From assembly GCA_003094535.1 (NCBI GenBank), contig NATV01000097.1, positions 1-46,975 on the forward strand: a stretch of DNA of 46,975 nucleotides. Reading direction: 5' to 3'. The notes under the pieces were generated by a model. The model ran no database searches. It worked only from the letters and a program-made list of their open reading frames with translations, and was not told the DNA's origin. How positions within the stretch are numbered: the first letter of the stretch is position 1; each line of letters starts with the position of its first letter. Both the position numbers and the translations under genes were made by a program. Shown piece by piece: positions 25,702-27,725 of this stretch. Origin of the DNA: a gamma proteobacterium symbiont of Ctena orbiculata. Lineage in GTDB: Bacteria; Pseudomonadota; Gammaproteobacteria; Chromatiales; Chromatiaceae.

Positions 25702-26379
25702 TTACCCGGTCTGCAGAGAGTCAAGCCCTGTTCGTAACCGGTGCAGACGCGCAGCCCCCAGCTCGCTGAGCTTGCTGCCGCTATCACCATGTGCAAGCTT
25801 TTCCCCTTGGTGAAGAAGCGCCTCCAGCTGGGCTGCGTCAAACAGCGTGAGGGCGGCCTCGAAATCGCTCTCGCCGGCGCAGAGCAGGACGGGCAGCAGT
25901 TCATCCTTGGCAATCAGTGACTCCGGGTCCAGGAGATCGGCCACCAGTGGATTTTCAAGCAATTCATAATGAGCCTGACGGGCTGCCTCCTCCTGCTGCA
26001 GCTCCTGGTGCGCCAGGGTATCGTTTCCAGCGCCTTTCCACACGGAGCGCATGATCACATCCACCAATTTTCTGATCGCCTCCTTGTTGGGCGTCTGATC
26101 ATCGGCGAGGCGACAGGCGGTCTCATAGGCCTTGTCCAGGCGCTCTTTCAGATCCAATATGACATCGCTCTGCTCATGGGGACCCAGGGAGACTGCCTCA
26201 CCGACCAGGCGGCGCAGCTCCCCAATGTAGGCCACCAGCTCCTCATGATCGAGACGCTGGGCCTCCGTCAACTGCGCTTGGGTCAACTCGCGGACCGTCT
26301 CCGGAAAAAGTGGATTTTCAAACCTGCGCAGCAGATGGCGCTCATGCCTTCCTGGGCGTTCACTAAACAACAGTCTCAT
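25702..26379 (-). CDS. conserved helical protein, function unknown
   Basis: A 225-residue soluble protein, almost entirely alpha-helical and rich in Leu, Glu and Ala, without signal peptide, membrane helix or cysteine motif. The N terminus (MRLLFSERPGRHERHLLRRF) is basic and the rest acidic. Repeated helical segments such as EELVAYIGELRRLVGEAVSL and DVILDLKERLDKAYETACRL suggest a helical bundle or scaffold. I do not recognise the family. It is convergent with the CAP gene (17 bp) and its 5' side faces the small-peptide promoter region. Confidence 0.75.
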   Translation of the reverse strand: MRLLFSERPGRHERHLLRRFENPLFPETVRELTQAQLTEAQRLDHEELVAYIGELRRLVGEAVSLGPHEQSDVILDLKERLDKAYETACRLADDQTPNKEAIRKLVDVIMRSVWKGAGNDTLAHQELQQEEAARQAHYELLENPLVADLLDPESLIAKDELLPVLLCAGESDFEAALTLFDAAQLEALLHQGEKLAHGDSGSKLSELGAARLHRLRTGLDSLQTG

Positions 26380-26664
26380 GCTTCTGCCTGACTAAGAAGG
26401 GATCGAAGTCCATTTGTACCACGAAACGGCAGATGATGGGCAGCTCTCCGAAACCCTGGGCGGTTCAACCCTAAATGGGCAACAAAACTGAAAAAATAAT
26501 CCCAATTGAATCGACGGGGGCCAAAATAAGAGCTGATTTATTGATGCACATCAGTTGTTTCGGCAAAAAGAGCATTTACCCTACATCCCGCAGTGTTTTT
26601 GGCGCGGCCTGAAATCCGGGTCGCACGAACTTTTATGGTCATGTCAATGAAGGAGGACAACACC
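26380..26664 (+). promoter_or_regulatory. upstream region of the first small peptide gene with an FNR-type box
   Basis: TTGATGCACATCAG at 26541-26554 matches the FNR consensus TTGAT-N4-ATCAA at nine of ten positions. A -10 candidate TACCCT lies at 26577-26582, predicting a start near 26589. The box centre (26547.5) is then at about -41.5, the classic position for FNR-activated (class II) promoters. The leader to the ATG at 26665 would be 76 nt. On the opposite strand the same spacing offers no -10, so the box most likely serves the plus strand. A related Crp/Fnr regulator (Dnr, Anr) could also bind. Confidence 0.65.
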
Positions 26665-26745
26665 ATGTTAGGTAGTGAAAAAGCACTCGTAGGAGCCATC
26701 GCCGTACTGATACTGGGCATAGTTGCCGCAGTTCTGCTTGGCTAG
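26665..26745 (+). CDS. 26-residue single-helix membrane peptide, copy 1
   Basis: An ATG with AAGGAGG eight bases upstream starts a 26-codon frame ending in TAG. The product begins MLGSEKALVGA and ends VAAVLLG: a short polar cap followed by one hydrophobic helix (about residues 7-26) with small residues at 3, 7, 10, 11, 13, 18 and 26 that could pack against another helix. A close relative is encoded at 27603. The two share 15 of 26 residues; 10 of the 14 shared residues after the initiator use different synonymous codons, so selection acts on the peptide. In-frame ATGs at 26641 and 26647 exist, but the ribosome binding site fits 26665. An FNR-type box lies upstream and a perfect hairpin downstream. 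Function unknown; I recognise no family. Confidence 0.75.
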   Translation: MLGSEKALVGAIAVLILGIVAAVLLG

Positions 26746-26751
26746 ATGGAA

Positions 26752-26783
26752 AGGGGGCGGTGGCTTCGGGGCCACCGCCCTCT
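26752..26783 (+). terminator. hairpin between small peptide 1 and hemerythrin (convergent ends)
   Basis: GGGCGGTGGC (26755-26764) pairs perfectly with GCCACCGCCC (26771-26780) around a six-base loop; A, G and a G-T wobble extend the stem to 13 pairs. It begins seven bases after the peptide stop and lies between two convergent genes, so it may serve both. There is no T-run on either side, so it may act as an RNA 3' end stabiliser rather than a strict intrinsic terminator. Confidence 0.5.
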
Positions 26784-26816
26784 GAGAACAGAAGAACCTG
26801 GCAACCTCAACAGCGG

Positions 26817-27251
26817 CTACATCACCTGACGCAGAAAGAGTGCGGTTGCCGTGTCCATGCTCTTCACATGCTGGTCGAACCAGGCCCGCCACTCGTTAAA
26901 GATAAAATCGGCAAGCGCTTCCAGCGACTGATCTCTGATCCATTGCGCCTGAATCGATTCGAGTCTGGCAAGCACTTGCGCATGCTCCGCTTTGTGCACG
27001 GGGTAGGGGGGGAACCCATAGCGTTCCATCAACCTGTTTTCTCCATCGAAATGGTCCCGGGTGTGTACCACCCACCCATCCACTGAACGGCCGATAAGAT
27101 CCAGGTCTGGCGCACCCTCAATACCCTGAACGACCAGTTCACCCAGGCGGTTGATCAGAACAACCTCTTCCTTATGAACTTCATTCATCGCATCCAGGGC
27201 CACACCGGGCATCACGGTAGGATCAACGACTGGCAGCAGATATCGACTCAC
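26817..27251 (-). CDS. bacteriohemerythrin
   Basis: A 144-residue hemerythrin, a four-helix protein that binds O2 reversibly at a non-heme di-iron site. All seven ligands can be assigned: His26, His67 and Glu71 (HFDGE), His86 and His90 (HKAEH), His128 and Asp133 (HVKSMD). It has no fused sensor or signal domain, so oxygen storage, delivery or scavenging is likely, as proposed for single-domain bacteriohemerythrins in microaerobic bacteria. Translation starts at GTG (27251) with GAGAG upstream. An exact FNR-consensus box precedes it (see promoter). It lies between two related 26-residue membrane peptides. Confidence 0.93.
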   Translation of the reverse strand: MSRYLLPVVDPTVMPGVALDAMNEVHKEEVVLINRLGELVVQGIEGAPDLDLIGRSVDGWVVHTRDHFDGENRLMERYGFPPYPVHKAEHAQVLARLESIQAQWIRDQSLEALADFIFNEWRAWFDQHVKSMDTATALFLRQVM

Positions 27252-27602
27252 GACGATCTCTCACCGAAACGGAAACAAGCCAGGGATGCTACCCGATCGC
27301 TTATCGGTGACCTTTGATTTCGATCAACTCAGCGTATCTTGAGCCGGAGCAGCCCCGGCCGCCGACCTTAGATGGCTTAAAGAATCCATAGATAACAAGA
27401 GGATAACCAGGGCATCCCATTCTCCTTCTTTTTTTATGGGATTCGCCGACAGACCTTGAAATTCCGCCGATTCACACTAGTTATAGGTTAGGGCCAATCG
27501 AAGCAGTGTTGACAGGCCCAGGTACCAAGCCAAGCCGGCGGGTATTCAATAGCTAAGATGCTTTATCTTGTCATCGGCAATGAGTCACGGAGGCGATCAA
27601 AG
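27252..27602. promoter_or_regulatory. 351 bp divergent region hemerythrin / small peptide 2
   Basis: The FNR promoter of hemerythrin occupies 27279-27327 (separate entry). Toward the second peptide gene there is a consensus -35 hexamer TTGACA at 27509-27514 but no -10 at suitable distance, so its promoter is undecided. An inverted repeat AAGAT-N5-ATCTT at 27555-27569 lies 34 bp before the start codon. A T-rich run at 27426-27435 sits between CCCAT and ATGGG and does not make a terminator. Confidence 0.4.
27286..27327 (-). promoter_or_regulatory. FNR-type promoter of the hemerythrin gene
   Basis: TTGATTTCGATCAA at 27314-27327 is an exact match to the FNR consensus TTGAT-N4-ATCAA. On the minus strand TAGCAT (27291-27286) is a good -10, predicting a start near 27279. 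The box centre (27320.5) is then at -41.5, the standard class II activator position. The leader before the GTG start codon would be about 28 nt. Confidence 0.75.
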
Positions 27603-27683
27603 ATGTTAGGAAGCAATCAGGCAATCATAGGCGCACTCGCGATTATTATTCTCGGCGTAGTTCTGTCAGTCATGCTCGGATAG
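27603..27683 (+). CDS. 26-residue single-helix membrane peptide, copy 2
   Basis: An ATG with CGGAGG nine bases upstream begins a 26-codon frame ending in TAG, the same length as the peptide at 26665. The product begins MLGSNQAIIGA and ends LSVMLG. Differences from copy 1 are mostly exchanges among Ile, Leu, Val and Ala within the predicted membrane helix, while the glycines at 3, 10, 18 and 26 are kept. Shared residues are largely encoded by different codons, so this is not a recent DNA copy. A 16 bp perfect hairpin follows four bases after the stop codon. Function unknown; the context suggests a role connected with oxygen or respiration. Confidence 0.75.
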   Translation: MLGSNQAIIGALAIIILGVVLSVMLG

Positions 27684-27687
27684 GCGA

Positions 27688-27725
27688 CTACCGGGGTGAC
27701 AGCCTGAAAGCTGTCACCCCGGTAG
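27688..27725 (+). terminator. perfect 16 bp hairpin after small peptide 2
   Basis: A 16-base arm at 27688-27703 (starting CTACCGGGG) is exactly complementary to 27710-27725 with the loop CTGAAA. It begins four bases after the peptide stop. The stem is very stable, but no T-run follows. It probably defines the 3' end of a short peptide mRNA. Confidence 0.65.

Follow-up and report, generated by a model that had tools for sequence, protein, structure and literature searches.

CydY (YnhF), which is also named CydH, and the TorE/NapE family, whose genes sit near their respiratory partners, are among the closest described systems for the two peptides considered here. According to the papers concerned, CydY/YnhF, the fourth subunit of the E. 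coli bd oxidase, is a single helix of about 3 kDa that appears at low oxygen and whose gene lies apart from the operon of the oxidase (PMC6853902), CcoM, with 36 residues, belongs to the cbb3 oxidase of Pseudomonas stutzeri as a small subunit and is connected with growth under limited oxygen (PMC10433244), and the TorE/NapE family consists of small membrane proteins helping respiratory complexes (PMC6134056). YohP of E. coli has 27 residues and one helix, dimerizes through a glycine motif, is up under oxygen limitation and lowers the membrane potential, and flanking positive charges are common in peptides of its type (PMC12719787).

The window analysed here, the whole stretch of 46,975 nucleotides from a gamma-proteobacterial symbiont of the clam Ctena orbiculata, contains two paralogous genes, P1 and P2, whose products can be set beside these proteins (Table 1). 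CydY and P1 are both short single helices with a stand-alone gene, and CydY provides a precedent for the mode of action proposed below (PMC6853902); the two differ in that the genome of the window has no CydA match and P1 has no NCBIfam match. CcoM offers the example of a small subunit tied to growth when oxygen is scarce (PMC10433244), but it is ten residues longer, and P1 matches no PDB sequence. YohP is of similar length and has one helix, a likeness by description, and FNR control of YohP is not mentioned in the accessible part of the paper (PMC12719787). With the TorE/NapE proteins the likeness is that of small membrane helper proteins (PMC6134056), although P1 has no Pfam match. The search for CydA (PF01654) gave no match in the 4.29 Mb genome of the window; within the genus, 10 of the 22 genomes give a match at E <= 0.001, 9 of them above cut-off, the gene being whole in G011, split over two contigs in G007 and partial in the rest. 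A role of P1 as a subunit of cytochrome bd is rejected for this genome because CydA is absent from it.

Searches with P1, P2 and 14 members of the family gave nothing above cut-off among such models as Pfam and NCBIfam contain, or in PHROGs, PDB sequences and Rfam. The best weak matches were Psb35 (E 0.47), Phage_Coat_B (E 0.032, two of the 14 members) and phrog_32077 (E 0.013, one of the 14); the only Rfam match had an E of 0.37, and no PDB chain matched at E 10, a test made weak by queries of 26 residues. The opinion of the initial annotation that the peptides belong to no named family is upheld by these searches. No published description of the peptide appeared among the literature matches listed, a coverage from which subscription journals are mostly absent, and neither expression nor protein evidence for P1 or P2 was found. 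P1 and P2 constitute a new family within the small single-helix membrane proteins.

Table 1. Features of the P1/P2 locus, with positions in the window
Feature	Position	Strand	Basis or remark
P1, 26-codon single-helix peptide gene	26665..26745	+	translation, genus relatives, pN/pS
P2, paralogous 26-codon peptide gene	27603..27683	+	translation, 9/19 relatives' loci plus window, pN/pS
P1 ribosome-binding site AGGAGG	26651..26656	+	most aligned rows keep AGGAGG; weaker in G012
P2 ribosome-binding site GGAGG	27589..27593	+	present in aligned P2 rows
FNR-type dyad TTGATgcacATCAG, P1 promoter	26541..26554	.	dyad in 18/19 P1 loci, also G009
TACCCT, -10-like element of P1	26577..26582	+	dyad centre +29.5
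P1 hairpin	26752..26783	+	between convergent genes, without T-run
Bacteriohemerythrin	26817..27251	-	PF01814 E 9.9e-11, TIGR02481 above cut-off; convergent with P1, divergent from P2
TAGCAT, -10-like element of hemerythrin	27286..27291	-	spacing to dyad
Perfect FNR-type dyad TTGATTTCGATCAA, hemerythrin promoter	27314..27327	.	dyad in 20/20 hemerythrin orthologs
P2 hairpin	27688..27725	+	between convergent genes, without T-run

Coding constraint and spread of the peptides

P1 (translation MLGSEKALVGAIAVLILGIVAAVLLG) and P2 (translation MLGSNQAIIGALAIIILGVVLSVMLG) each start with ATG, comprise 26 codons and stop with TAG. They are identical at 15 of 26 residues, and 10 of the 14 shared non-initiator residues differ in their synonymous codon; both counts reproduce those of the initial annotation, which was also right about the exact frames, the TAG ends and the good ribosome-binding sites. 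When P1 is used as the query against the 4,293,232-base genome (G000), the only match at E <= 10 besides P1 itself is P2, with an E of 1.9e-4.

The further claim that the peptide, and not the DNA, is conserved is borne out by the frames of the relatives and by the mean pairwise pN/pS, which is 0.28 for P1 (19 sequences) and 0.45 for P2 (10 sequences). The copies use all three stop codons. Both alternative frames are closed in 19/19 P1 sequences; in P2, one alternative frame is open in 4/10 sequences. The comparison of G012 with G020 (6 nonsynonymous and 0 synonymous changes) speaks against strict constraint. Over 23 distinct sequences, A7, G10 and G18 never vary, Ala or Ser stands at position 11, Ala, Ser or Thr at position 22, and Gly or Ser at position 26; Gly, Ala or Ser occupy positions 7, 10, 11, 18 and 26 in 100% of the sequences and position 22 in 96%. 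The glycines at 3, 10, 18 and 26, from which a packing of the helix against a partner had been deduced, are kept in 91%, 100%, 100% and 83% of these sequences, Ser being the alternative at position 26; the conservation of glycines and other small residues is thus upheld, with a periodicity that is modest (alpha-helical P = 0.034, heptad P = 0.17). Residues 7-25 have a mean hydropathy of about 3 and the P1 helix is probably inserted in the membrane, its net charge being near 0 with one Lys beside an acidic residue.

A P1 match at E <= 0.1 is present in 20 of the 22 genus genomes, the window's own included, G017 and G019 being those searched without one. P2 is found in 10 of these 20 genomes, that is, in the window and in nine of the 19 relatives' loci, which are stretches of 5.6-17 kb around P1; the other ten have P1 without P2, and no P2 remnant was found in them on the + strand between hemerythrin and dehydrogenase. 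P1 is intact in 17/19 relatives and P2 in 9, and every intact copy of the genus, like the window's two, has exactly 26 codons. The search of named genomes returned 13 loci, which belong to eight Candidatus Thiodiazotropha, four gamma-proteobacterial symbionts of Ctena or Stewartia clams and one Chromatiales bacterium. The signs that had been named in advance as speaking against the gene, among them loss of the ATG, are seen in two of the 20 P1 loci and not in the rest: P1 of G016 starts with CTG instead of ATG and its promoter box is absent, and in G009 (L039) a short element with inverted ends breaks the frame near the second codon, the promoter, leader, ribosome-binding site and ATG being kept. 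We read both defects, from the sequences compared, as probable losses in single lineages. Missing from G017 and G019, broken in G009 and startless in G016, P1 is dispensable in some species.

Beyond the genus the family is sparse. Single-sequence searches of 194 family genomes gave matches confined to this genus (11 genomes with each query). The profile search added a clear member of 26 residues in G075, of another genus (E 2.7e-4), and a weaker one of 27 residues in G050, of yet another genus, whose E of 0.117 is no better than that of several chance-like partial matches listed and whose later E of 1.9e-8 is not independent, since the profile already contained the G050 sequence. By reading, both members have a start, a ribosome-binding site and an inverted repeat after the frame, to which G050 adds a T-run. 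In the class-wide profile search of 369 genomes, 17 match at E <= 0.1, of which two belong to this genus; the other 15 matches are partial, each covering 12 to 20 columns and falling within a frame of 104-1122 codons, and the best of them (E 0.0021) is better than the G050 member. Weak profile matches were obtained in 42/175 family genomes at E <= 1, in 60/210, and in 80/204 at E <= 2, the genus itself counted in; outside the genus nearly all are partial, and 11 places examined for a start, a ribosome-binding site and hydrophobicity held no similar peptide. From this comparison of genomes we conclude that the 26-residue membrane-helix genes of clam symbionts are real; the existence of the P1 peptide and its promoter are both well supported.

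Hairpins had been noted after both frames and are indeed present (P1, -33.1 kcal/mol, z -4.0; P2, -38.6 kcal/mol, z -5.6), but they are not textbook intrinsic terminators because no T-run follows them. With the window included, the hairpin beats shuffles (z <= -2) after 14/19 P1 and 8/10 P2 copies, z being above -2 in 5/19 and 2/10; no hairpin was found 3' of P2 in G007 and G008.

FNR-type promoters and the hemerythrin neighbourhood

The alignment of the sequences upstream of P1 shows a footprint made of the dyad TTGA[TC]-N4-[AG]TCA[ACG], present in 18/19 loci and also in G009, and of a hexamer placed 29.5 bp past the dyad centre, which is TACCCT in 16/18, TACCTT in one and TGCTCT in one, G009 having TACCCT too. 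When this hexamer is set at -12 to -7, the dyad falls at -41.5, the class-II position of FNR promoters, and the P1 transcript would start near 26589. Relative to the strict TTGAT-N4-ATCAA, a single mismatch is counted in 11/19 P1 loci, two mismatches in three loci and three in four loci; the symmetry of the dyad is kept in four of the seven loci with two or three mismatches. The hemerythrin orthologs have the dyad and a TAnnnT element at centre +29.5 in 20/20 cases, including three on other contigs, and 17/20 deviate from the strict consensus by no more than one base. In a spacing control on 65 dyad readings from both strands of 20 stretches (292,066 bases, 292 kb), for which the dyad and hexamer patterns were defined after the footprint was seen and the hemerythrin pattern leaves the last base free, TAnnnT occurs at that spacing in 17/18 readings at P1, 17/17 at hemerythrin and 1/30 elsewhere. 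The sole case elsewhere is the P1 promoter of G009, which leaves 0/29 among the other readings, some of which may represent the same boxes read on the opposite strand.

Seven of the ten P2 loci have a box 206-289 bp upstream of the gene, and TAnnnT lies towards P2 in 0/7. FNR control of P2 is rejected on this spacing, and the box at 27314-27327 fits the spacing of the hemerythrin promoter. The FNR-type control put forward by the initial annotation holds for P1 and hemerythrin, which have the class-II geometry of a dyad at -41.5 plus a -10 element, and fails for P2, which lacks TAnnnT at that spacing in 7/7 loci. Six places of the Crp/Fnr family are found in the genome of the window, two of them, other than L159, not having been read in the right frame; L159 has CKNCSLSTLC (CX2CX5C), a later Cys and ETVSR. 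We take CX2CX5C and ETVSR in L159 to be the marks of a four-cysteine FNR-type regulator, and the genome, to judge from these motifs, encodes one; P1 would be induced at low oxygen. At the presumed start of the P1 transcript, many relatives have a GCAAT-GTT-ATTGC inverted repeat, degenerate in the window at about 26590-26602, which might serve as a further operator or form a hairpin at the 5' end.

The hemerythrin ortholog (E < 1e-39) is present in 20/22 genus genomes, the same 20 that have P1, and absent from G017 and G019, which have 3 and 6 other hemerythrin-domain places; these two absences give the co-occurrence little power and may represent a single loss. In G009 and G016 the hemerythrin and its box are kept although P1 is broken. 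The conservation beside hemerythrin genes that was to be looked for in relatives is seen in 16/19 loci, where the two genes adjoin, but not in G013-G015 (L043-L045), in which a fatty-acid desaturase gene (PF00487, tested in L044) and a gene of 104-110 residues lie between P1 and P2, and hemerythrin, still preceded by its FNR-type box, is on another contig; adjacency to hemerythrin is therefore common and not required. The C-terminal part of the L044 desaturase also matches the ISL3 transposase PF01610 (E 2.4e-9). No hemerythrin was found within the 14-18 kb read around the G075 and G050 members, whose genomes have hemerythrin-domain genes on other contigs. The flanking of hemerythrin, by which the pair was originally described, fails as a defining trait in view of the desaturase of G013-G015, of the ten genomes without P2 and of the two other genera. 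In the genomes compared, the tie between P1 and hemerythrin appears regulatory and phyletic and not one of strict adjacency.

The other neighbours offer no linked partner gene for P1, since they vary between genera and partly between species. A protein of 225-230 residues precedes P1 in all 19 relatives' loci; the window's copy (25702-26379), of 225 residues, adjoins P1 and has no Pfam match. An NAD-binding dehydrogenase and uroporphyrinogen decarboxylase (PF01208) lie downstream in 19/19 relatives' loci, phosphoenolpyruvate carboxylase (PF00311) is in 18/19 stretches and a CAP-domain protein in 16/19. In G001, G003, G009, G010, G011 and G021, a gene for a hybrid histidine kinase of 630-631 residues (PF00512, PF02518 and PF00072, tested in L031) stands beside hemerythrin, where P2 is missing. 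The genome of the window has eleven hemerythrin-domain places, ten above cut-off. In Ca. T. endolucinida a hemerythrin, not mapped to this locus, ranks within the top 100 genes by transcription in three hosts (PMC13137333).

Proposed role of P1 and rival explanations

The model we propose starts from the coding, the spread, the promoter anatomy and the FNR-type gene as read from the sequences, and adds to them a presumed membrane insertion, low-oxygen induction, partner and effect. In it, P1 would supply an accessory helix, induced by FNR, to a membrane complex that works at low oxygen and is not cytochrome bd, comparably to CydY and CcoM; we put the probability of this model at about 0.5. At low oxygen, active FNR would bind the dyad at -41.5 and turn on P1, the hemerythrin gene being likewise turned on from its own promoter. 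The P1 helix would insert in the inner membrane and pack by means of A7, G10/A11, G18, S/A22 and G26 onto a larger low-oxygen membrane protein, which it would stabilise or tune in the way that CydY and CcoM act on their oxidases. P2, which half of the species retain, would be a duplicate of older date whose expression does not depend directly on FNR. The lack of a linked partner gene, the dispensability of P1 in some species and the weak periodicity of its small residues speak against this model.

The strongest alternative is that P1 modulates the membrane in the manner of YohP: a self-pairing helix with a glycine motif would, without any fixed partner complex, reduce both membrane potential and fluidity under oxygen shortage and thereby slow metabolism. 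Such a role is possible, if somewhat unlikely: the 27 residues, the glycine-motif dimer and the oxygen-limited rise reported for YohP (PMC12719787) agree with it, as do the conserved small residues of P1 and the lack of a linked partner gene, but P1 is without the flanking positive charges which, according to that paper, are common in such peptides, and a helix conserved so tightly over its full length is explained no less well by a specific protein interface. It is more doubtful that P1 acts with hemerythrin, for instance as its membrane dock, delivering O2 to a terminal oxidase. The class-II FNR-type promoters common to both genes, their occurrence in and absence from the same genomes, and their adjacency in most relatives' loci argue for this partnership; against it, the two absences may be one loss, G009 and G016 keep hemerythrin and its box with a broken P1, the hemerythrin-domain genes of the two other genera are on contigs other than that of the peptide, and P1, taken up by its helix, offers no soluble part with which a soluble protein could be bound.

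It is very improbable that P1 and P2 are type I toxins held down by antisense RNA, despite being short, hydrophobic and duplicated and despite two overlapping antisense promoter-like matches inside P2, for such matches are about as frequent as chance predicts (2 against 1.2 expected) and, by reading of the alignment, both antisense hexamers are kept only in the window's genome and roughly in G004. Its constant position within the genus and its promoter of the activator type also set P1 apart from type I toxin genes. The notion that the conserved unit is an RNA with a hairpin, the frame being incidental or secondary, can appeal to the hairpins that follow most copies and to the first codons, which are also conserved as DNA. 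This is extremely unlikely in the face of a pN/pS below 0.5, the variable stop codons, the absence of a frameshift from the copies compared and the keeping of the P1/P2 frame despite different codons; in some copies the hairpin is not clearly better than shuffles, and no Rfam family was found.

If P1 is the accessory helix that we propose, it could be an unrecognised additional subunit, peculiar to this lineage, of the respiratory chain that clam symbionts use at low oxygen, and its FNR co-switch with hemerythrin would join O2 capture and oxidase tuning in one module; this extension is speculative and on present evidence unlikely. In conclusion, our observations describe a very short bacterial protein family backed by genome comparison, with a promoter that predicts when the peptide is made, and they indicate that genes which annotation passes over for their shortness can be validated by the footprint of their promoter. 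P1 offers a handle on how chemosynthetic clam symbionts adjust their membranes or their respiration to low oxygen.
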